Positions 1 to 11,950 of a DNA stretch of 64,000 nt are shown piece by piece. A program made the position numbers and the translations under genes. Below the pieces are notes generated by a model. It saw only the letters and a program-made list of their open reading frames with translations. It made no database searches and was not told the origin of the DNA. Position 1 is the first letter of the stretch. Every line of letters begins with the position of its first letter. This DNA is from Meiothermus sp. (GTDB lineage: Bacteria > Deinococcota > Deinococci > Deinococcales > Thermaceae), in the NCBI RefSeq assembly GCF_025060375.1, contig NZ_JANXCG010000015.1, positions 1 to 64,000 on the forward strand. Reading direction: 5' to 3'.

Positions 1-150
1 CTCGTCGCGCGGGGCGCCCAGGGCCTGAAGAACCTCCCATGGGCCCATCCGCACCGCCCCGGTGCCCAGGGCCAAAACGCCCAGGGTCAGTAGGGCCAGG
101 GCCAGCAGGGGAATCAGGGCGGGTTTGGGAAGGGCGGGGCGGCCTAGCAT
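1..150 (-). CDS. FecCD-family iron ABC transporter permease, N-terminal fragment (runs off window)
   Basis: Manual minus-strand translation from ATG at 150: MLGRPALPKPALIPLLALALLTLGVLALGTGAVRMGPWEVLQALGAPRDE, typical FecCD N-terminus; lies beside an iron SBP. Confidence 0.7.
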   Translation of the reverse strand, partial: MLGRPALPKPALIPLLALALLTLGVLALGTGAVRMGPWEVLQALGAPRDE

Positions 151-287: not shown

Positions 288-1163
288 TCAGACCTCTTCC
301 CAGCGCACCAGGCTCTCCAGGCTGGGGTATTTGCGCGGGGCCAGGGCCCGCTTGGCGAAGCCCATGTAGAAAAGCCCCAGCAGCCGGTCGGGGGGCTCGG
401 CCCAGCCGAAGTAGGCCGCCAGGTCGGGGTGGGTGGCCACCGGGCCGCTGGCCCAAAGCCCCCCCAGGCCCTGGGCTGCGGCCATCAGGTGCAGGTTCTG
501 CACCGCCATGCTCACCGCAGCCAGCTCCTCCCATTCCGGCATGGGCCGCTCCCGGCGGGGCTGCATCCCGATGGCGATCCAGACCGGGGCTCCAAAGATG
601 AGCTTGCGGTAGCTCTCCAGCCAGCGTGGCTCATAGCCCGGCAGGGCCTTGGGGAACACCTCCTGCACCTTAGCCCATAGCCTTCCCTTGGCCTCGGGGC
701 CGGTAATGACCACAAAGCGGAAGGGGTGGGTGCGCCCGTTGTTGGGGGCGTAGCGGGCCGCATCCAGGCAGCGCTCGATGAGGGCACGGGGTACGGGGTC
801 GGGCCTCAGGGCCTGCACCCCGTAGCTGCGCCGCCCCCGGATGATGGCCTCGAGGGCATCCGCATCAAAACTGGGGTAGGGCCGGTGGGGCAGCCTGGGC
901 TGGCTCATCAGCGCCACCAGCATCTCCCGCAGGTGCAGGGCATCCCTGGCGGGCTCAGCAAAGCGGTGCTCAAAGCGTGCGCTCTGCTCGCCGTCCCAGA
1001 CCAGGGCGGTAAAGCCCTCGGGGCTGAGCTCCGTCATCTCGGCCCCCTCGGCCCACTCCGGGCCGCCCAGGGCCTTGATGGTGGCCAGAAGCTCCTCGGC
1101 GTGGTCGTCGTTGATGTGCTCGAGGTAGGCCGAAAGCCGCTCGGGGGTCAGGTCGGTAGTCAC
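288..1163 (-). CDS. DUF2470 domain fused to nitroreductase-family domain
   Basis: N-term LSAYLEHINDDHAEELLAT...DGEQSARFEHRFAEPA is DUF2470-like; C-term IIRGRRSYG...APNNGRTHPFRFVVI...AVQNLHLMAAAQGLGGLWASG is nitroreductase. Confidence 0.8.
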   Translation of the reverse strand: MTTDLTPERLSAYLEHINDDHAEELLATIKALGGPEWAEGAEMTELSPEGFTALVWDGEQSARFEHRFAEPARDALHLREMLVALMSQPRLPHRPYPSFDADALEAIIRGRRSYGVQALRPDPVPRALIERCLDAARYAPNNGRTHPFRFVVITGPEAKGRLWAKVQEVFPKALPGYEPRWLESYRKLIFGAPVWIAIGMQPRRERPMPEWEELAAVSMAVQNLHLMAAAQGLGGLWASGPVATHPDLAAYFGWAEPPDRLLGLFYMGFAKRALAPRKYPSLESLVRWEEV

Positions 1164-2107
1164 TTCACCTTCTCCAGAATCAACCGGGTCAGCTCGCTCA
1201 CGTTGCGCAGGCTCACCAGCGGGCCGCTGTAGGGGCTGAAGGGCTCGGGAGTGTAGAGGATGGCCTGATCCTTGAGCTTCTGCCCTACCGGGCTACTGAA
1301 GAAGGCCTTGGAGCCGTCGTACTGGCCGCCGGGCGGGAAGACCACCACCAGGGTCTCCTTGTCCAGGCTGATCAGGGCCTCGTCGCTGATCTGGGCCCCC
1401 ACATTCAGGGTGACGTCTTTAGGGGTGTAGCCGTCCTTGAAGCCCATGGCCCTGAGGTCGGGGATCAGCCGCACGTTGGTGTAGACCCAGTTGGCCCCTC
1501 CGGCGAAGGGGGCTACCACAATCACCTTGGGGTACTTTTGGAAGACCCCCGCATTCCTCAGGCGGGCCTGGGCGGCCTGATAAGCCCCCCGCACCTGGCC
1601 GATGATGCGCTCGGCCTCGGTGCTCTTGCCGAAGATGCGCCCCAGGTCGCGCAGACCCCGCTCCCAGAAGCCCTTGCCGCCTTCCTCATAGCCCAAGGTG
1701 GGGGCGATCTGGCTCAGCTTGTCGTAGTGTTTGTTGCCCTTCCAGGTGAGCCGCACGATCAGGTCGGGCTTTAGGGTCAGCAGGGTTTCCAGATTGGGCT
1801 CCATCCAGGTGCCGATGTAGGTAGGATTGTTGAGCTTAGCCCGGGCTAGAAAGCCTTTCTGCAATACCTCAGGCTTGATATGGCCTCCGCTGATATCGGC
1901 AGGGGTCAGGTAGGCGCTGGCCAGCCCCACGATGCGGTCACCTACCCCCAAAGCAGCCAACCAGCCCAGGGCCTCTTCGTCCATCACCACCACCCGCTTG
2001 GGGTTGAGGGGCACGCGGCTGGTGCCCTCATCGTGCTCGATGGTAAGGGTCTGGGCCAGGGCAAAGCCTGAGAGGACGATTGCGACAAGAAGGTTCTTAA
2101 GGTTCAT
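1160..2107 (-). CDS. Iron-siderophore ABC transporter substrate-binding protein (FecB/FepB-like)
   Basis: Signal peptide, VPLNPKRVVVMDEEALGWLAALGVGDRIVGLA...PNLETLLTLKPDLIV. Confidence 0.85.
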   Translation of the reverse strand: MNLKNLLVAIVLSGFALAQTLTIEHDEGTSRVPLNPKRVVVMDEEALGWLAALGVGDRIVGLASAYLTPADISGGHIKPEVLQKGFLARAKLNNPTYIGTWMEPNLETLLTLKPDLIVRLTWKGNKHYDKLSQIAPTLGYEEGGKGFWERGLRDLGRIFGKSTEAERIIGQVRGAYQAAQARLRNAGVFQKYPKVIVVAPFAGGANWVYTNVRLIPDLRAMGFKDGYTPKDVTLNVGAQISDEALISLDKETLVVVFPPGGQYDGSKAFFSSPVGQKLKDQAILYTPEPFSPYSGPLVSLRNVSELTRLILEKVK

Positions 2108-2586
2108 TTCTCTTCTCCTTTGCTCAAAAGGCTCTCAGCCAAAAACGGGTTGAGGCCGCTTTCCAACAGGGCTACCAGGCGGCCAAACTGGCTTTCTTCC
2201 TCGATCTGCTCCTCTAAGTACCACTGCAAGAACTGGTAGGTGGTGTGGTCTTTTTCCTCCAGGGCGGCCTGGGCCATGGCCTGGAAGTCGCGGGTGACCT
2301 TCTGCTCGTAGGCCAGGGCGGTCTGGGTGGCCTCGAGCAGGCTGGCGTACTCGCTTTTCACCTCCGGCAGGGCAGCGAGCTTGACCGGGGCGCCCACCTC
2401 AACCAGGAAGCGAAAAATCTTCAGGGCGTGTTCGCGTTCTTCCTCGGACTGGCGCTCAAAAAAGGCCTGCCAGCCCTCCAGGTTCTGTGACCCAGCGTAG
2501 GCCGCCATCCCCAGGTACTGCTGGCTGGCGGTGAGCTCGCGGGTGAGCTGCTCGTTGAGCATCTGCTGTAGGGTTTGGCTAATCAT
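2104..2586 (-). CDS. Ferritin
   Basis: 160 aa; LNEQLTRELTASQQYLGMAAYAGSQNLEGWQAFFERQSEEEREHALKI...LQWYLEEQIEEESQF. Confidence 0.92.
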   Translation of the reverse strand: MISQTLQQMLNEQLTRELTASQQYLGMAAYAGSQNLEGWQAFFERQSEEEREHALKIFRFLVEVGAPVKLAALPEVKSEYASLLEATQTALAYEQKVTRDFQAMAQAALEEKDHTTYQFLQWYLEEQIEEESQFGRLVALLESGLNPFLAESLLSKGEEK

Positions 2587-2598
2587 GGGAAACCTCCT

Positions 2599-4818
2599 TT
2601 AGGTATGGCGAAGGTTGTTGGGCAGTGCCCGGCGCTTGAGTCCTTCGGCCAGGAAGTAGCTGCCCAGCACCGCAACCACAGCGAGCACTTGCAAGCCCAG
2701 GCCCTCCCAGGTGGGGTAAAGCCCGAGCCACATCCCCGCCCAGTAAGGAAGGGCCAGCCCCCCGATGGGGTGCACGGGCAGCCAGCCCACCACCTGCCAG
2801 ACGTGCGCGGTGGTGCCCACCATGGTGAAAAGCACCAGCAAGAGCAGCACACCGGTGGCGATGAGCATTCGCTTGTAGGGCAGCTTGGCCTGCAAAGCAA
2901 AGACCCCGAGGCCCACCCCCACGGTGGCCAGCAGGCCCAGCCCGATGCCCAGGAGCACCGGGGCCAGGCTGGACTGGAGCACCAAGGACTGCAAGAAGAG
3001 CACCGTCTCGAAGCCCTCGCGGTAGACGCTCACAAAGCCCAGGCTGAGGAGCCCCAGATACTGCCCGGTCTCGGCCCGCAGGAGGCGCTGTTTTTGCTGG
3101 TGGAAGCCGGCCAGGTGATCCGTCCAGTAGACCTGGTGGAAGAACCAGTTCATGATCAAGAGCAGCACCGCAATGGCCAGCAAGGAGACCACCGCCTCGA
3201 GCCGCTCGCCGTAGCGGGCGAACTGGGTCAAAAGCCCCCGCATGGCAAACCAGGTCAGCACCGTCACCCCAAAAGCCAGCAAGGCCCCCTGCCACAGCGG
3301 GCGGCGGAAGCGGCGCACCTCGGGGCGCTTCAAGCTCCCCAAAAGGGCGGCCAGGATCAGCACCGCCTCGAGCCCCTCGCGGAAGACGATGACCGCGGCG
3401 TTGGCCAGGGTGGCGGCGGGGGCGCTTTGGGTCGAGAGGAAGCCGCTGGCCTCGTGCAGCTTGGCCTCCAGCCGCCGCCGGGTCTCGCGCACCTCGCTGG
3501 GCGGGGCCTTCTGCCGGATTAGGCGGGCCAGGCCATCCGGCCCATTCCAGAACAGGTCCTCAATCTCCAGGGCCAGGGCCGGGGCGAAGACCCTGAGCCG
3601 GGCCTCGGGCCCCGACTCCAAGAGGGCGTAGGCGTCCATGCGCGCGGTCTCGGCCAGGTCGTAGCGGCCCTGGGCCACCGCGTTTTCCAGGGCCTTGAGC
3701 TGCTGACGGATCACCTCCAGGTCACCCGCGGGGTCGGCCCGGCGCCACTCGGCGGGCAGAAGGGCCTCGAGCTCTTGACGCAGGGCCCTCACCCCTTCCT
3801 CCAGGGCCTGGGCGCTGGGGGGGTTGTCCCCCTGGCGGGCGGCTTGCAGCCCCTGCTCGAGCCCTTTGAAGCCCTGACGAACCCCCTCCACCTTGGCCGC
3901 CGGGAACATCGGCTCTAAAGCGCTCCAGGCCGCACGGGCGCTTTCCAAAAAGGCCGTGGCCTCCTCAATCTCCAAGGACTTGGTGACCCGCACCGCCCCC
4001 GCCGGGCCCACCACCCCCCGGCCGTACTCCACGGCTACCAGGTCCAAAAAGCGCAGGGTCTGGTTGGCCCGCCGGGCCCGCTCGCGGGGGGAGAGGGGGG
4101 CCGCCTGGAAGCCGGAGAGGGCCTCCCGGATGGCCCCAAGCGGGCCCGACGCCAGGGCCTGGCGGGCCTCGGCCAGCCTGGCCGCCCCCCGGGCTTCCCG
4201 GTAGGCCGGGGCCAGAATCTCAAAGTAGCCCTGGGCCAGGGCCCGCTGCTCGGCGGCCCGGACGGGCTGGCCCTGGGACTGGGCCTCCTCGAGGTCGCGC
4301 AACGCGGCCTCCAGCCGGGCCTGGTAGGCCCCCAGCAGGTCGGCCCGCACCGCCAGGAGGGCCTCCTCGGGCTTTAGGCGGCCCTGGCGCAGCTCCTCCA
4401 GGGCCAAGGTGGCCTCGGCCTCGGGTGCGGCGTAGCGGGTGGCAGGCCGGTACTCGCGCAACAGGGCCCAGCCCCGGGCCGCCGCGAGGTCCCCGGAGCG
4501 CACCGCCTCCTCCAGCCTTAGGTAGCCCTGGCGCAGGAGGTCGGTCCACAGGCGGGCCCGTGCCCTCGCAAAAGCCGCCTCGTCCCGCGCGCCGAGGGCC
4601 TCCTCGAGGGGCTTCAGGTCTACGGTTAGCCCGGCTTTGGCCAAAGCCGCCGCCTCCGCCTGGGCGGCTTGGAGCAGCCCAGCCGCCGCCTGAGGGTCGA
4701 AGGCCAGCTCGAGCTGGGCCTCCACCAGCCTGGCCCTAAGCCCCTCGGCCCGCTCGGCAGGGGTGGGCTGGGCCAGCACCAGCCCAAGCCCCAATAAAAG
4801 CCCCACCCAGCGCCTCAT
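2599..4818 (-). CDS. FTR1-family iron permease with long N-terminal extracytoplasmic domain
   Basis: 739 aa; two REGxE motifs (FREGLEAVLILAALL, YREGFETVLFLQSL) in the membrane domain; signal peptide. Confidence 0.88.
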   Translation of the reverse strand: MRRWVGLLLGLGLVLAQPTPAERAEGLRARLVEAQLELAFDPQAAAGLLQAAQAEAAALAKAGLTVDLKPLEEALGARDEAAFARARARLWTDLLRQGYLRLEEAVRSGDLAAARGWALLREYRPATRYAAPEAEATLALEELRQGRLKPEEALLAVRADLLGAYQARLEAALRDLEEAQSQGQPVRAAEQRALAQGYFEILAPAYREARGAARLAEARQALASGPLGAIREALSGFQAAPLSPRERARRANQTLRFLDLVAVEYGRGVVGPAGAVRVTKSLEIEEATAFLESARAAWSALEPMFPAAKVEGVRQGFKGLEQGLQAARQGDNPPSAQALEEGVRALRQELEALLPAEWRRADPAGDLEVIRQQLKALENAVAQGRYDLAETARMDAYALLESGPEARLRVFAPALALEIEDLFWNGPDGLARLIRQKAPPSEVRETRRRLEAKLHEASGFLSTQSAPAATLANAAVIVFREGLEAVLILAALLGSLKRPEVRRFRRPLWQGALLAFGVTVLTWFAMRGLLTQFARYGERLEAVVSLLAIAVLLLIMNWFFHQVYWTDHLAGFHQQKQRLLRAETGQYLGLLSLGFVSVYREGFETVLFLQSLVLQSSLAPVLLGIGLGLLATVGVGLGVFALQAKLPYKRMLIATGVLLLLVLFTMVGTTAHVWQVVGWLPVHPIGGLALPYWAGMWLGLYPTWEGLGLQVLAVVAVLGSYFLAEGLKRRALPNNLRHT

Positions 4819-5837
4819 TGGCCCACCTTAAGGCCCAGCAGGGCCGCAGCCTGGGCCAGCTTGCCGGTGACGGCGGTGGCCCGGTTGTCGGTCTCCTTGT
4901 AGATGAGCTCGGCCTGCTCCAGGCTGAAGCGGCGCACCTTTTCCTGGGCCACCAGCCGCTCGGCGTAGGCCTTGAGGCCCGAGAGCCCCTCGGTGATCTG
5001 GCGATCCAGGGCGGGGTTTTTGGCCCGAACCAGGCTCGAGACCCCCGCATAGAGCGCCTGCCAGGAGCGGATGTTGTTCACCAGGTCGTCCAGCGAGGAG
5101 ATCACGTTGAAGTCGCGGCGGGTGGCCTTCTCGCCCAGCACGAAGCGGGAGGTCTTCCACCGGGCCACGAAGACCGAAGCGGCGGTGGGCACGTTGGCCA
5201 CCAGCGCCCCAAAAACGTCGCTGGGGGTCGGCTTCCACCCCCGGGCCGCCGCCAAAAGCCCCCCGGTCAGCTCGTCGAGCTTGGCCGCCCCCGCCTTGAG
5301 CACATGGGCGTCGGGCAGGTAGTCGCCAAAGCCCAGCTTGCCGTCGCCATCCACGTCAAAGCGCACCCCGCTGCTAAAGGCCCGCTCGGTACCCCAGAGG
5401 GTGCCCTCCAGCACCCCAAAGGCGTTGCCGGGGCGCCTGAGCACCCGGCCATCCTCCAGCTTGAGGTCGAAGGTGACCACCGCGTCGCCCCCCTCGGCGG
5501 CGGAGGCCCCGGCGTCCAGGTTCAGGTCGAAGTCGGCGAGCGACTCCACCCCCGCCACAATCCCCTCCACGCTCTCGTAGATGGGGCTGGCCTTCACCCA
5601 GGCCGCCCTGGCCGCTTGCAGGCTCTGGCGCAGCGGACCGGGCTGGGTCTGGGCCAGCCGTCGGTAGTCGAAGCCGGCCTTCTGGGCCAGGGCAAAGTAG
5701 TCCTGGCTGGCCTTGACCAAGGCTGCGGTAGCGGCTTTTTGCTGCTCCACCCGCTCAATCAGGTAGCCCTTGACCGCTTCGATTCCCTGGGCCTGGGCCA
5801 GGCCCAGCAGGACAAGGAGCACCACCCACCGGCCCAT
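4815..5837 (-). CDS. Imelysin family protein (EfeO/peptidase M75-like)
   Basis: Signal peptide; IYESVEGIVAGVESLADFDLNLDAG, GNAFGVLEGTLWGTERAF; adjacent to FTR1. Confidence 0.75.
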   Translation of the reverse strand: MGRWVVLLVLLGLAQAQGIEAVKGYLIERVEQQKAATAALVKASQDYFALAQKAGFDYRRLAQTQPGPLRQSLQAARAAWVKASPIYESVEGIVAGVESLADFDLNLDAGASAAEGGDAVVTFDLKLEDGRVLRRPGNAFGVLEGTLWGTERAFSSGVRFDVDGDGKLGFGDYLPDAHVLKAGAAKLDELTGGLLAAARGWKPTPSDVFGALVANVPTAASVFVARWKTSRFVLGEKATRRDFNVISSLDDLVNNIRSWQALYAGVSSLVRAKNPALDRQITEGLSGLKAYAERLVAQEKVRRFSLEQAELIYKETDNRATAVTGKLAQAAALLGLKVGQ

Positions 5838-5840
5838 TCC

Positions 5841-6500
5841 TCACCGCTCCTCAACCAGCACAAAGGCCAGCCCGAAGTTCTCAGCCCGGTGGCTGTACTG
5901 CCCCGAGAGGAAGAGGGTGTAGCTTTTTCCGCTCTCGAGGCGCAGCGAAGGCAGGGGAATGCCTCGGGTGGTATCCCCTGTTGCGAAAAGCACCAGGGAT
6001 AAGCCACCCGCCCCTAGCCCCTGGTAAGCCCCAGCCTGGCCGAAGGAGAGGTTCTGGGCCACCAGGCTGCCCGAGCCTCCACCCACCCGCACATCCACCG
6101 CAGGGAATCCCGGCACGGCGTGCACCAACCTAAGGCTGGCCTGGCCGCCGGCAGGGCTGGCGGCAGCATCCTCCAGCAGGATGCCCCTAAGCTGGGCCAG
6201 CAATCCGGTAGCGGCCAGGGTGTAGCGCTTGCCCGCCTCAATCCGCAGCCGGGCCTCCATAACGCGGGGCTCGGTTTTTCCCGTCGGCACCAGCCAGACC
6301 GTGACCTCTCCGGCGGGCAGGCTCTGGTAGTCCGAAACCGCTTTGAAGGCCAGCTTGCTCAGAACCTCGAGCCTGCTGCCATTTACCCACACATCCACCT
6401 CGGGGGCGTCGGGGGAAAGGTGGGCCACCCGAAGTCCTGCGTTTTGTCCCAGGGCTAAGCCAGCCAGAAGCGTAAGGAAAAACCCAAAAATCTTCTTCAC
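5841..6500 (-). CDS. DUF4397 domain-containing secreted protein
   Basis: Signal peptide; LRVAHLSPDAPEVDVWVNGSRL...YQSLPAGEVTVWLVPTG, repeated LRLVHAVPGFPAVDVRV. Confidence 0.85.
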   Translation of the reverse strand: MKKIFGFFLTLLAGLALGQNAGLRVAHLSPDAPEVDVWVNGSRLEVLSKLAFKAVSDYQSLPAGEVTVWLVPTGKTEPRVMEARLRIEAGKRYTLAATGLLAQLRGILLEDAAASPAGGQASLRLVHAVPGFPAVDVRVGGGSGSLVAQNLSFGQAGAYQGLGAGGLSLVLFATGDTTRGIPLPSLRLESGKSYTLFLSGQYSHRAENFGLAFVLVEER

Positions 6501-7048
6501 GCCAAACCTCCTTCTAACCTCGCAAGCTGTGGCAGGGCCATTTCTTCCAAAAGCTGTTTCACCCAGGCCTGGATGCGCGGGGTGGAAAGTTCAGGCTGGT
6601 TGTCGTAGTCCAGCGCAAGCCCTACAAACTGGCCGTTCTCCACGGCCAGGCTTTGCGAGTGAAAGTAGCCGTCGGTGGAAGTGAAGCCCACCAGTTCGCC
6701 ACCGGCCTCGCGCACTGCTTGCGCCAAAATGGCCAGGGCATCCTGAAAGCTGTCGGGGTAGCTCGACTGATCGCCTACCCCAAAAAGGGCCACCCTTTTC
6801 CCCTTTAGCGAGACCTTGCCCAATTCCTCCAGGCAGCGAGCCCAGTCGTCCTGTAGCTCACCGATGTTCCAGGTCGAGACCCCCAGCAGCAGCGCATCAC
6901 ACTCCCCCAACCGCTGTAGTCCTCGGTCAGCCACGTCGTGCAGCCAGATTTCGCCCGCAATATGCTTTCTCATCTCTTCGGCAATCTCGAAAGCTGCGTC
7001 GCGCGTATTGCCGTAAGTGGAGCCAAAGAAAATTCCCAGCCTGAACAC
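6497..7048 (-). CDS. Flavodoxin
   Basis: MFRLGIFFGSTYGNTRDAAFEIAEEM...LLLGVSTWNIGELQDDW...VALFGVGDQSSYPDSFQDAL; GTG start at 7048 preferred over the ORF-track start 7081. Confidence 0.88.
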   Translation of the reverse strand: MFRLGIFFGSTYGNTRDAAFEIAEEMRKHIAGEIWLHDVADRGLQRLGECDALLLGVSTWNIGELQDDWARCLEELGKVSLKGKRVALFGVGDQSSYPDSFQDALAILAQAVREAGGELVGFTSTDGYFHSQSLAVENGQFVGLALDYDNQPELSTPRIQAWVKQLLEEMALPQLARLEGGLA

Positions 7049-7050
7049 CC

Positions 7051-7182
7051 TTAGTCCACCCCCTCCCAGTCCCAATCCCAACCCAGCCCCAAGCAGGTGG
7101 CCTCTTCAATCGCCAGAGCCCACCAACCCCGCTCGCCCACCACAAAATCCGACCAGAACCAGTAGAACAGACTCCGCCACAT
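7051..7182 (-). CDS. Trp-rich 43-aa micro-ORF, hypothetical
   Basis: Manual translation: MWRSLFYWFWSDFVVGERGWWALAIEEATCLGLGWDWDWEGVD; ATG 8 bp after the upstream stop, stop 2 bp before the flavodoxin GTG; GAGG upstream of ATG. Confidence 0.5.
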   Translation of the reverse strand: MWRSLFYWFWSDFVVGERGWWALAIEEATCLGLGWDWDWEGVD

Positions 7183-7190
7183 ACCCCGCC

Positions 7191-7541
7191 TCAGTTGAGG
7201 AACCTGAAAACCTCTGGACTCTTTTTCTCCAATCCCCCCTGTTGCAGTTCGGCCAGGGCGGCCTGAATCATGGTGTGGAGTCCATGCCGCTCCTCAAAGC
7301 TCATCCGCAGGGCCACACTACCCACCCAGAGCACAAAGGGTATTTCCGGTTCCTCTTCCTCCCTCCGCACCGCCTGGGCAACCACCTCCGCCAGCCATCC
7401 GAAGTCCTTCAGGCTCAGGTGGAGGGTAGCCACATCCCAGGAAAGGTGCACAATGCCCCCGTTGCAAGGGCAGCTGTCGATGTAACGAAACTCGCTCAGG
7501 GTGGCCAGTCTGCGCAGGTGCGGGCAGCTCATGGGTTCCAC
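7191..7541 (-). CDS. Hypothetical 116-aa protein with CPCNGG motif
   Basis: ORF tiled between nitroreductase and micro-ORF; MEPMSCPHLRRL...YIDSCPCNGGIVHLSW. Confidence 0.65.
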   Translation of the reverse strand: MEPMSCPHLRRLATLSEFRYIDSCPCNGGIVHLSWDVATLHLSLKDFGWLAEVVAQAVRREEEEPEIPFVLWVGSVALRMSFEERHGLHTMIQAALAELQQGGLEKKSPEVFRFLN

Positions 7542-8104
7542 ACCACCTTCCTTCGCCAGTCGCTGCGCACGCCTTGGGGGAGCGGTTCAGCCGGGTAGCC
7601 CAGGTACAAAAACCCCAGAAGCCGAGCCGGTGGGGTTAGGCCACAGACCCGCGCGGTGTGCTCGTGCACCACCGGCCTCCCCGAGGTCCAGAAGCCCGCC
7701 AGGCCCAAAGCGGTGGCGGCCAGCCAGGCGTTCTGAACCGCACAGGCCACCGCCGCCACCTCCTCCCACTCGGGAAAGCGGCCGCTGGGCTCCAGCCCCA
7801 GACCAATCCAGACCGGGGCCTGCCAGACCCGCTCGAGCTGGGCCTTGTAGCGCTCAGGGCGAAAGTCCGGGCCGCTGAAGGAGCGGGCGTAGCTCTCGGC
7901 AAAGGCCTCGCCCAATCGGCGCCGGGCCTCCCCCTCAAAAACCACCCAGCGCCAGGGCTCGGTGCGCCCGTGCGAGGGGGCCCAGTGGGCCGCCTCCAGG
8001 ATCTGCTCGAGCTTCTCCCGCTCCACCGGCCTGTCCAGGTAGCCCACCGCCAGCGAGCGGCGGGCCCGAATGACCTCAAAAACAGAAGGAAGGGTCGCTT
8101 GCAT
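7529..8104 (-). CDS. Nitroreductase family protein
   Basis: VIRARRSLAVGYLDRPV...APSHGRTEPWRWVVFEG...CAVQNAWLAATALGLAGFWTSG. Confidence 0.85.
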   Translation of the reverse strand: MQATLPSVFEVIRARRSLAVGYLDRPVEREKLEQILEAAHWAPSHGRTEPWRWVVFEGEARRRLGEAFAESYARSFSGPDFRPERYKAQLERVWQAPVWIGLGLEPSGRFPEWEEVAAVACAVQNAWLAATALGLAGFWTSGRPVVHEHTARVCGLTPPARLLGFLYLGYPAEPLPQGVRSDWRRKVVWNP

Positions 8105-8118
8105 GGCAAAACCTCTTA

Positions 8119-8913
8119 TCAGCCCGCTACCGGGGTGGGCTCCGCCTGGGCCAGCGGCATCACCCAGGGGCGGCCGCTGGGGTGCTGGGCCAGGGCGAAG
8201 GGCAGGCCGTAGACCGCCTCGAGCCGCTCGGGCCGCAGCACCTCGGCGGGGCGGCCCAGCGCCACCATCCGCCCTTCGTGCAGCAGCAGCAGCCGGTCGG
8301 CGAAAAGCCCCGCCAGGTTCAGGTCGTGGAGCACCACCACTACCCCCAAACCTCCCCCGGCCAGGCGGCGGCAGAGGGCCATGACCTCCACCTGGTGGCG
8401 GGGGTCTAGGTGGTTGGTGGGCTCATCCAGGAAGAGCAGCTTGGGCTCCTGGGCCAGCACCCGGGCCAGGTCCACCCGGCTCTGCTCGCCGCCGGAGAGG
8501 CTGGGGTAGGGGCGTGGGGCGAAGGGGAGGGCCTGGGTATGGGCCAGGGCCTGCTCGGTCTGGGCGTGGTCTAAAGGCCCCTCGGCCCGGCGCTCCAGGT
8601 GGGGCAGCCGGCCCAGGAAGGCCACCTCGTAGGCGCTGAAGGGAAAGCCCACCTCGCGCCGCTGGGTCAGCACCGCGCGCAGTAGGGCCAGCTCGAGCGC
8701 CCCATAGCGCTCCAAGGGCCGCCCCAGGAGCTCAACCCGGCCCTGGCTGGGCCGCAGCTCGCCCGACAGAAGGCGCAGCAGGGTGGTCTTGCCGGCCCCG
8801 TTGGGGCCCAGCACCGCCAGCACCTCCCCGGCCTCCAGGGCAAAGCCCACCCCCTCCAGCAGGACGCGCCCCGCCGCGGTGTAGCCGAGCCCCTCGGCCA
8901 CCAACAGGCTCAC
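8119..8913 (-). CDS. hmuV: Heme/iron ABC transporter ATP-binding protein (HmuV-like)
   Basis: Walker A GPNGAGKTT, signature LSGGEQSRVDLARVL, Walker B LLFLDEPTNHLD; GTG start at 8913 overlaps the permease stop. Confidence 0.88.
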   Translation of the reverse strand: MSLLVAEGLGYTAAGRVLLEGVGFALEAGEVLAVLGPNGAGKTTLLRLLSGELRPSQGRVELLGRPLERYGALELALLRAVLTQRREVGFPFSAYEVAFLGRLPHLERRAEGPLDHAQTEQALAHTQALPFAPRPYPSLSGGEQSRVDLARVLAQEPKLLFLDEPTNHLDPRHQVEVMALCRRLAGGGLGVVVVLHDLNLAGLFADRLLLLHEGRMVALGRPAEVLRPERLEAVYGLPFALAQHPSGRPWVMPLAQAEPTPVAG

Positions 8914-9932
8914 CGGGCCACCTCCCGCTTGTGGCGCAGCAGCAGCCAGATGAAGAAGGGAGCCCCCAGAAGGCTCGTCACCACCCCCACCGGCAGCTCC
9001 GCCGGAGCCACCGCCGTGCGGGCCACCAGGTCGGCCAGCACGCTCAGGGAGGCCCCCAGCAGGGTGGCCCCGGGCAGCAGGTAGCGGTGGTCGGGCCCGG
9101 CCAAGAGCCGGAAGAGGTGGGGGGCCACCAGCCCGATGAAGCCCACCCCGCCCGCCGCGGCCACCGCGGTGCCCACCGCCAGGGCCGAGAGGGCCACGGC
9201 CTGGCGCTTGAAGGGCTCGAGGTTCACCCCCAGGTGAAAAGCCTCCCGCTCCCCCAGCACCAGGGCATTGAGGGGCCGGCCCAGCCGCAGCAGGCCCCAA
9301 AGCGCCACCAGCCCGGTGGGGGCCATGGCCAGCAGGGTGGTCCAGGTGGCCCCGCCGTAGCCCCCCAGGGTCCAAAAAGTGAGGCTGCGGAGCTGCTCGT
9401 CGGTAGCCCGGCTGATCAGAAGGCCAATCAGGGCCCCCGCCGCCGCGTTGAGGGCGATGCCGGCCAGGAGCAGGGTCAAGACCTGCACCCGCCCCCCGCT
9501 GCTGGCCAGCCGCCAGACCAAAAGGGTAGTGAGAAGCCCTCCCACAAAGGCCATCAGGGGCAGGGCGAAGACCTGCAGGGCCCCCGCCCCCGGCACCAAA
9601 ACGATGAAGATGGCCGCCCCCAGCCCGGCCCCCGAGGTCACCCCAATCAGCCCCGGGTCGGCCAGGGGGTTGCGAAAGAGGCCCTGCAGCACCGCCCCCG
9701 AAAGGGCTAGCAGGGCCCCCACCGCCGCGGCCAGCACCACCCTGGGAAAGCGGATGGAGACCAGCACCGCGTAGGCCTGGTCGGCCTTCTCCAAAAGCAC
9801 GCGGGGAATCTCCCAGGGTGGGATGTAGTAGGCCCCTATCCCCGCGGCAAGCAGGAGAGCGGCGGGCAGAAGCAGGCCCAGGGCCAGCAGGGCCGAGCGA
9901 TAGCGCAGAACAGAACGGGGCAGGGCTATCAT
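8910..9932 (-). CDS. hmuU: Heme/iron ABC transporter permease (FecCD, HmuU-like)
   Basis: SIRFPRVVLAAAVGALLALSGAVLQGLFRNPLADPGLIGVTSGAGLGAA...GGVGFIGLVAPHLFR. Confidence 0.9.
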   Translation of the reverse strand: MIALPRSVLRYRSALLALGLLLPAALLLAAGIGAYYIPPWEIPRVLLEKADQAYAVLVSIRFPRVVLAAAVGALLALSGAVLQGLFRNPLADPGLIGVTSGAGLGAAIFIVLVPGAGALQVFALPLMAFVGGLLTTLLVWRLASSGGRVQVLTLLLAGIALNAAAGALIGLLISRATDEQLRSLTFWTLGGYGGATWTTLLAMAPTGLVALWGLLRLGRPLNALVLGEREAFHLGVNLEPFKRQAVALSALAVGTAVAAAGGVGFIGLVAPHLFRLLAGPDHRYLLPGATLLGASLSVLADLVARTAVAPAELPVGVVTSLLGAPFFIWLLLRHKREVAR

Positions 9933-10546
9933 GGCAGAAGCCGGTGGTTTGCGAGGCGGAAGGCCCGGTAGCTCAGGCCCTCCCGGTCCTGCCGCAGTAC
10001 CGCCCGGCCCTGCGGCAGCCAGAGCCCCTCCACCTCGGTATAGGTGTCCGTGTAGTTTTCCACAGCCTCCAGCACCTCGCCCCGTCGGTAGACCACGGTG
10101 AAGTGGTGGGGCAGGTACCTCTCCCCCGCCGGCAGGTGGCTTTGCACGTGGATGCGGAAGGAGACTCCCTCAGGGTTCCGCTCCACCAGCACCACCCGCC
10201 CGTCCCGCACCCAGAGCACCGAGCGCAGGGGGTCCTCCAGGGCGATGGCCACCCCCAGCGGGCTCTCCTGCACCACCCGCATGGGGTACCGCCCCTCGCC
10301 CTCCTCAAAGGGCCGGGGGGAGCGGTGGGCCAGCATGGAGGCCAGCTCGCGTTCGGGCCAGGCCCGCAGGGGCTCCGGCAGGGCCACCGCCACCGCGCGG
10401 GGCCCATCGGCCTGCACCCTCCCCTGGTGCCAGCCTCCCTCCTGGAACAGGTGCAACTCGGCCTCAAAGCCCCCAAAGCCTTCCGGCAGGGTGTAGGCGC
10501 GGGCCCGCGCGGCCTGCAATAGTTCGTAGGCGGAAATGGCCGTCAT
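9929..10546 (-). CDS. Hypothetical protein, DUF3386-like (tentative)
   Basis: 205 aa; AYELLQAARARAYTLPEGFGGFEAELHLFQEGGWHQGRVQ resembles remembered DUF3386 N-termini; lies between hmuT and hmuU. Confidence 0.55.
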   Translation of the reverse strand: MTAISAYELLQAARARAYTLPEGFGGFEAELHLFQEGGWHQGRVQADGPRAVAVALPEPLRAWPERELASMLAHRSPRPFEEGEGRYPMRVVQESPLGVAIALEDPLRSVLWVRDGRVVLVERNPEGVSFRIHVQSHLPAGERYLPHHFTVVYRRGEVLEAVENYTDTYTEVEGLWLPQGRAVLRQDREGLSYRAFRLANHRLLP

Positions 10547-11460
10547 GGCTGGGCTGGCTCCCCGGCGATGTAGAGCCCCTGGCGCTCGTAGGCCCCGATG
10601 AAGAGGTCCAGCGCGGCCCGCCCAGCCCGGGGGCCAAAGCCGCCCAGGTAGAGGTCGTCAATGGCCACCACCCGTCCCGCCTGACCGGCAGGGGTCTGCA
10701 TCACCCCGGGCAGTTTGCGCAGGCCCTCTAGGCCTCCCACGCTCTCCAGCCCCTTGGTGAAGACCACGATCACATCGGGCTGGGCCCCCACCACCGCCTC
10801 AGCCGTCATCTGCTTGCAGTCCTTGATGCCCCTAGCGGCGTTGGCAATCCCAGCCAGCTCCATCATCCCCACCGGGTTGGAGCCCTCCCCGCACACGTAG
10901 GTCACCTGGGTGCCCCGCAGGTAGAGGAAGAGGCCCTTCAGGGTTCGCTGCTTGGTGGCCTGGCGCTGCTTGGAGCGCAGCACCAGAAGGTCGCGCTCCA
11001 AGGCCCGCACCAGGGCCTCGCCCCGCTCCACCTGGCCCACCGCCGCGGCGATGGTGCGAATCTTCTCCTTGGCCCCCTCGAGCGTGGGCTTATCGGGCAC
11101 CCGCACCACCGTCACCCCGGCGGCGGCGAGCTGGTCGAAGACCTGCGGCGGCCTGGCGTCCTCCCGGCCCAGCACTAGGGTGGGCCTCAGGGCCAGGATG
11201 CCCTCGGCGTTGAGCTGGAACTGGTAGCCCACGGTGGGGAGCTTGTTCACCGCGGCCGGGTAGTAGCTGCTGGTGTCGCGCCCCACCACCTTGTCCCCCA
11301 CCCCCAGGGCAAAGAGAATCTCGGTGGTCACCCCATTCAGGCTCACGATGCGCTCAATGGAGCGCACCGTGATGGTCTGGCCCCGGGCATCCTTGACGGT
11401 AAAGGGCTGGGCCAGGCCAAGCCCCAGGGCCAGGAAAGCGGCAAGCAGAAGCCCCCTCAC
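10543..11460 (-). CDS. hmuT: Heme ABC transporter substrate-binding protein (HmuT-like)
   Basis: Signal peptide; RIVSLNGVTTEILFALGVGDKVVGRDTSSYYPA...LRPTLVLGREDARPP. Confidence 0.85.
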   Translation of the reverse strand: MRGLLLAAFLALGLGLAQPFTVKDARGQTITVRSIERIVSLNGVTTEILFALGVGDKVVGRDTSSYYPAAVNKLPTVGYQFQLNAEGILALRPTLVLGREDARPPQVFDQLAAAGVTVVRVPDKPTLEGAKEKIRTIAAAVGQVERGEALVRALERDLLVLRSKQRQATKQRTLKGLFLYLRGTQVTYVCGEGSNPVGMMELAGIANAARGIKDCKQMTAEAVVGAQPDVIVVFTKGLESVGGLEGLRKLPGVMQTPAGQAGRVVAIDDLYLGGFGPRAGRAALDLFIGAYERQGLYIAGEPAQP

Positions 11461-11786
11461 GCCCGCTCCTCCTTCAAGGCCGAGTCGGTGACCACTGAGA
11501 AGCTCTCCAATCGGCTTGGCCCGCGGAAGGCCTCCCGCGGCAGGGTGCCGCTTCGGGCGTGGCCCTCCTTGAACTCGGGGCTATTCACCCAGTTCTGGAA
11601 ATGGGCCTCGCTTTCCCAGAAGGTCATCACGATGTAGGGCTCCTCGGCTGGATTGGCCGGACGCAGCACCAGGTTGCGGATGAAGCCCGGCATGCGGTCT
11701 ACCAGGCGGGCCCGCCCGCGAAAGTTCTCCTCAAAGCGCTCGGCATACTCCGGGCTTACCGGGATGCGGTTCATGGTCACGAACAT
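11457..11786 (-). CDS. ABM-type monooxygenase, probable heme-degrading (HmoA/IsdG-like)
   Basis: MFVTMNRIPVSPEYAERFEENFRGRARLVDRMPGFIRNLVLRP...YIVMTFWESEAHFQNWVNSPEF; SD GGAGG upstream. Confidence 0.78.
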   Translation of the reverse strand: MFVTMNRIPVSPEYAERFEENFRGRARLVDRMPGFIRNLVLRPANPAEEPYIVMTFWESEAHFQNWVNSPEFKEGHARSGTLPREAFRGPSRLESFSVVTDSALKEERA

Positions 11787-11927: not shown

Positions 11928-11943
11928 TGATATTTGATTATCA
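11928..11943. promoter_or_regulatory. Palindrome TGATA-N6-TATCA, candidate Zur/Fur-family operator
   Basis: TTGATATTTGATTATCAA immediately before the start of the zinc SBP gene; same motif at 12866. Confidence 0.55.
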
Positions 11944-11950
11944 ATAGCTT

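Follow-up and report, generated by a model that had tools for sequence, protein, structure and literature searches.

A DRI (DUF2470)-nitroreductase fusion in a heme and iron uptake operon of Meiothermus, with a suggested role in iron release

In the window analysed here (the whole stretch of DNA, 64,000 nucleotides long), a heme and iron uptake operon carries a gene in which a DRI domain (DUF2470) is fused to an FMN nitroreductase. The pairing is absent from the published survey of DRI proteins (PMC11014987), which describes DRI fusions with split-barrel, SIP, heme oxygenase and TMEM254 domains, nitroreductase not being among them, and mentions DRI-SIP fusions in Pseudomonadota only; both domains and their setting are already known, and none of the papers searched names DUF2470 together with nitroreductase. 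On balance, the product is probably a flavin reductase tethered to DRI, which either liberates iron from the chelates taken up or provides the operon's heme monooxygenase with electrons, and this iron-release reading fits better than that of a heme-degrading enzyme. The features of the fusion gene and its operon are as follows.

1..150, minus: FecCD permease, N-terminal 50 residues, truncated at the contig edge; intact in relatives
288..1163, minus: fusion gene of DRI (DUF2470) and nitroreductase, encoding 291 aa; start codon GTG at 1163, stop codon at 288-290
360..842, minus: FMN nitroreductase domain, residues 108-268; R111-R112-S113 nearly invariant, H146-P-F instead of EPW/QPW
870..899, minus: flexible inter-domain linker, residues 89-98, pLDDT below 50
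909..1124, minus: DUF2470/DRI domain, residues 14-85, from Pfam and a whole-genome search, with a fold match to Ssr1698
1101..1118, minus: HINDDH motif, which contains H16 and H21, both reported to be strictly conserved in DRI
1160..2107, minus: FecB/Peripla_BP_2 substrate-binding protein of an iron-chelate ABC transporter
2104..2586, minus: ferritin
2599..4818, minus: FTR1/EfeU-type iron permease with a long N-terminal extension
4815..5837, minus: imelysin/EfeO-like protein
5841..6500, minus: DUF4397 protein
6497..7081, minus: long-chain flavodoxin, above the TIGR01752 cut-off
7191..7541, minus: 116-aa Cys-containing protein of no family, conserved in the relatives' cluster
7529..8104, minus: second nitroreductase, unfused, directly after the HmuV-like ATPase
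8119..8913, minus: HmuV-like ATPase of a heme ABC transporter, 276.8 bits (PRK13548 equivalog cut-off 261)
8910..9932, minus: FecCD/HmuU-like permease
9929..10546, minus: DUF3386 protein
10543..11460, minus: substrate-binding protein, HmuT/BtuF/IsdE-like
11457..11786, minus: IsdG/HmuQ-type heme-degrading monooxygenase of ABM fold, ortholog of T. thermophilus TT1380 (1iuj)

No complete gene lies between the fusion and the contig edge; the GTG start of the fusion overlaps the stop of the upstream substrate-binding protein gene by 4 bp and has a GGAG-type ribosome-binding sequence upstream. The sequence-only reading had described an N-terminus of about 85 residues resembling DUF2470 joined to an FMN nitroreductase, and the Pfam search bears this out: residues 14-85 match DUF2470 (PF10615) with 43.6 bits, well above the cut-off of 22 (E 4.5e-11), and residues 108-268 match Nitroreductase (PF00881) with 91.2 bits against a cut-off of 23.5 (E 1.1e-25). 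The match at 909-1124 on the minus strand is the only DUF2470 of the genome in an independent whole-genome search. The AlphaFold2 model has a mean pLDDT of 78.9 over the whole protein and 80.7 over the DRI part, the latter superposing on heme-bound Ssr1698/Dri1 structures with TM-scores of 0.84 (8zxr) and 0.80 (8gdw), while the whole-protein model gives a strong fold match to nitroreductases such as YdjA, BluB and IYD. In addition, a PDB search with a profile of five DRI sequences recovered Ssr1698/Dri1, MSMEG_6519, plant HOZ and GBP, HugZ, PA4388 and ChuZ. The fusion is kept in frame in three genomes of two Thermaceae genera, with 97% identity in Meiothermus luteus and 91% in the genome of the second genus, and dN/dS is 0.08-0.19 for the complete ORF, or 0.15-0.18 when only the DRI part is taken. 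Together, the fold, the domain scores, the in-frame conservation and the purifying selection show that the fusion is neither a chance match nor the product of an assembly error or frameshift.

The sequence-only reading had also pointed to the neighbouring genes as a check, and the fusion is indeed surrounded by genes of heme and iron uptake. Between 11786 and 288, almost every minus-strand gene touches or overlaps the next, with the heme monooxygenase at the head and the fusion near the end, and this context, including HmuUV and a heme monooxygenase heading the cluster, is found in all three fusion genomes. The N, W and H residues of the monooxygenase align with those of HmoB; these are the catalytic residues of IsdG enzymes. 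A zinc substrate-binding protein gene (ZnuA) is divergent from the operon, and the region upstream of the monooxygenase is conserved; between the two divergent genes, at window positions 11933-11945, lies a near-palindrome, TTGATAATCAA / TTTGATTATCAAT, which is present in two genomes, conserved in M. luteus, and possibly a Fur-type site. A scan for sigma-70 promoters gave nothing above chance. Two further proteins of the operon have parts or sequences of their own: the FTR1 permease (2599-4818, minus) has an N-terminal extension of about 470 residues that has no Pfam match, and the 116-aa protein (7191-7541, minus), encoded between the flavodoxin and the unfused nitroreductase, has an SCPCNGG motif and matches neither Pfam nor NCBIfam. 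The latter protein is 67% identical in both relatives' clusters and 34% identical beside a flavodoxin in another genome of the genus (L042).

Parallel arrangements exist in the same phylum. When the DRI part was used as the query in plasmid searches, a D. radiodurans protein annotated only as 'SIP domain-containing protein' (WP_162177813.1) was retrieved, and no other DRI-nitroreductase was found in these searches. This protein, encoded on plasmid MP1 of D. radiodurans R1 (L047:8983-9894) and named DR_B0124 (PMC11229311), carries a Pfam DRI match of 31.1 bits with the motif HLNDDH, followed by FAD_binding_9 and SIP domains. Its operon runs substrate-binding protein, DRI-SIP, FecCD, FecCD, ATPase, with a ferritin-like gene near. 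Like the fusion, DR_B0124 has an N-terminal DRI on a flavin reductase and occupies the slot between a substrate-binding protein and FecCD as in the window; unlike it, the reductase is of the FAD_binding_9 and SIP type, the fold of which is unrelated to nitroreductase. Genome G108, from a third genus, has a homologous HmuTUV cluster in which HmuV is directly followed by a HugZ-like split-barrel plus DRI protein, and the substrate-binding protein beside the latter is 48% identical to the one preceding the fusion in M. luteus and in genome G024. Related iron and heme clusters of a single phylum thus contain DRI joined to flavin-type folds of three kinds. That this phylum has DRI attached to two flavin reductases of unrelated fold, in iron-transport operons of matching layout, suggests a common design, in which a heme-responsive domain would be attached to an iron-freeing enzyme. 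For most bacterial heme-degrading enzymes the electron donors are unknown (PMC6018153), and the function of DRI domains is known in few proteins only; the fusion is a small and probably thermostable protein with which such a design could be tested.

A nitroreductase can serve iron release, as the precedent of NtrA in S. aureus indicates. According to PMC9598555 and PMC6018153, S. aureus requires NtrA to use iron from staphyloferrin A, and requires it jointly with IruO to use heme; neither paper mentions a DRI domain for NtrA, with which the fusion is compared here by function. A search of the fusion genomes for siderophore reductases of the SIP type found none. The favoured reading rests on these points, on the operon context in all three genomes, on the parallels in D. 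radiodurans and G108, on the conserved H16 and H21 and on the intact flavin motif of the nitroreductase. The fusion would then be a cytoplasmic NAD(P)H-dependent FMN reductase of nitroreductase fold, expected to be a homodimer, acting in iron release at the end of the heme and iron-chelate uptake pathway. The DRI domain would bind heme via its H16/H21 face, or sense it; electrons from the flavin domain would reduce the Fe(III) of an imported chelate or drive the IsdG/HmuQ-type heme monooxygenase, and the resulting Fe(II) would pass to ferritin. Inferred in this scheme are the heme binding, the reliance on FMN and NAD(P)H, the acceptor of the electrons and which way the two domains are coupled. 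Several points stand against it: the cyanobacterial ligands E76 and H79 are replaced, the fusion is much rarer in the phylum than the heme monooxygenase, the unfused second nitroreductase of the same operon could do the reductase job, and the linker, flexible in the model, may leave the DRI histidines far from the flavin.

The same flexible linker would also suit a DRI domain that acts as a heme- or zinc-responsive regulatory or docking domain, which switches or places a general nitroreductase for which heme is not the substrate; we regard this as possible but rather unlikely. DUF2470 was renamed DRI by Grosjean et al. (PMC11014987), who described it as an iron/heme domain, reported that Dri1 binds heme and proposed that DRI is a heme-dependent regulatory domain; in the plant protein GBP it docks glutamyl-tRNA reductase, and the ZnuA gene divergent from the operon is in keeping with a response to zinc. 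Against this, both the operon context and the parallel DRI-SIP fusion suggest that the task is iron release, and regulation of that task is compatible with the favoured reading. In the same work, H16 and H21 were reported as strictly conserved across phyla, GBP excepted, while E76, H79 and R90 were specific to cyanobacteria (PMC11014987). The HINDDH motif with H16 and H21 is present in all three fusions, and these two histidines occur in all five aligned DRI domains, whereas the zinc-mirror ligands of the cyanobacterial proteins are replaced in the three fusions (L76 for E76, R79 for H79), and R90 is found in the window protein only, not in its two orthologs. A general-type DRI is therefore present, for which the zinc-mirror mode of heme binding is not expected. 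Compared with Dri1/Ssr1698 (8gdw, 8gf4, 8zxq), the fusion shares the DRI fold and H16/H21, but Dri1 is a single-domain protein with E76/H79 as zinc-mirror heme ligands and is linked to succinate dehydrogenase. Among the Deinococcota, a single-domain DRI protein of genome G008 (L015:7605-7931) has EDAH at the E76/H79 positions, outside the cyanobacteria to whose Dri1 the literature calls these residues specific.

The sequence-only reading had proposed flavin-driven heme degradation, in which the fusion itself would degrade heme in the manner of HugZ, the heme held by DRI being attacked with electrons from the adjacent FMN. The link that it drew to heme and flavin chemistry stands, given the operon and the DRI structures, while the fusion as the degrading enzyme is not the favoured account and appears clearly unlikely. 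DRI does occur in the heme-degrading HugZ, ChuZ and HOZ proteins (PMC11014987), the DRI-only protein Ssr1698 was credited with c-type heme oxygenase activity in one report (PMC10504260), and the fusion sits in a heme uptake operon. However, the degrading site of HugZ is attributed to the split barrel, which the fusion lacks, and isolated Dri1 did not degrade heme b (PMC11014987). Moreover, an IsdG/HmuQ-type heme monooxygenase is already encoded in the operon, so that heme degradation need not fall to the fusion. The full-length HugZ model TIGR04109 matches over the DRI part only, at 19.5 against 240 bits, and canonical HugZ membership was rejected on the missing split barrel. HugZ, ChuZ and MSMEG_6519 resemble the fusion in joining DRI to an FMN-type fold in heme and iron loci, but that fold is a PNPOx-like split barrel where the fusion has a nitroreductase. 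DUF2470 had further been placed at the C-terminus of HugZ-type proteins, which proved incorrect for H. pylori HugZ (3gas, residues 3-80) and C. jejuni ChuZ (3swj, 5-81), where it is N-terminal; it is C-terminal in MSMEG_6519 and in plant proteins.

The nitroreductase half contains the RRS flavin motif (R111, R112, S113) and the conserved C-terminal residues of the family, and it is closest to YdjA, BluB and small nitroreductases. YdjA (3bm1), a minimal nitroreductase, has the same fold and gives the catalytic half its best match in sequence (E 9.5e-16) but has no DRI; the score against the YdjA model PRK10828 is 63.8 bits, below the equivalog cut-off of 183. At the EPW/QPW position, each of the three fusions has HPF, with H146, a motif absent from every other nitroreductase compared that covers this position. 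The histidine would have a part if a single chain released iron from heme, with the DRI histidines holding heme, FMN reducing it directly and H146 helping at the flavin, which seems quite improbable. Were it so, the iron would leave before the operon's monooxygenase opens the ring, or with no such opening at all, by a reductive route for which the known heme oxygenases offer no example. The BluB-like chemistry to which the sequence-only reading had alluded found no support: a BluB-type enzyme making dimethylbenzimidazole from FMN for vitamin B12 beside a BtuCDF-like transporter would accord with the BtuC-like permease and a weak similarity to the BluB model TIGR02476 (61 bits), but is extremely improbable, as the score is far under the equivalog cut-off of 150 bits and the neighbours are heme and iron genes. 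BluB identity was rejected also because Ser113 stands where BluB has its catalytic Asp (RRS in the fusion, RRD in Azospirillum BluB); the essential Asp is D32 in S. meliloti BluB, and Ser113 occupies its position in the fusion.

The genome survey for DRI-nitroreductases covered 111 Deinococcota genomes, a set to which D. radiodurans does not belong. DUF2470 was matched in five of them, three by the fusion described here, one by the split-barrel plus DRI protein of G108 and one by the single-domain protein of G008. Since the fusion is rare (3/111) while the heme monooxygenase is commoner (33/111), the fusion is not a required partner of that enzyme. A scan of genome contigs with a single query sequence, which sees only close relatives, gave none besides M. 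luteus, and a viral-contig scan found no relatives of the fusion. The fused nitroreductase is 38% identical to the unfused gene at 7529-8104, 36% to BluB and 37% to a Thermomicrobium nitroreductase, so that its origin as a recent duplicate of the unfused gene was rejected; the unfused gene itself shares 51-58% identity with unfused genes elsewhere in the Thermaceae. In genome G006 (L039:9481-9858), the C-terminal piece of a nitroreductase 60% identical to the fused one lies next to homologs of the cluster's FecCD and ATPase genes; where its front half would be expected, a DNA cytosine methyltransferase gene lies on the opposite strand, and the piece is a broken remnant. The iron cluster of the relatives (L002:12992-14692, L013:3576-5282) also contains a fused oligopeptide-type ABC ATPase of 566 aa, DppDF-like, which sits between the binding proteins and FecCD and is absent from that place in the window.
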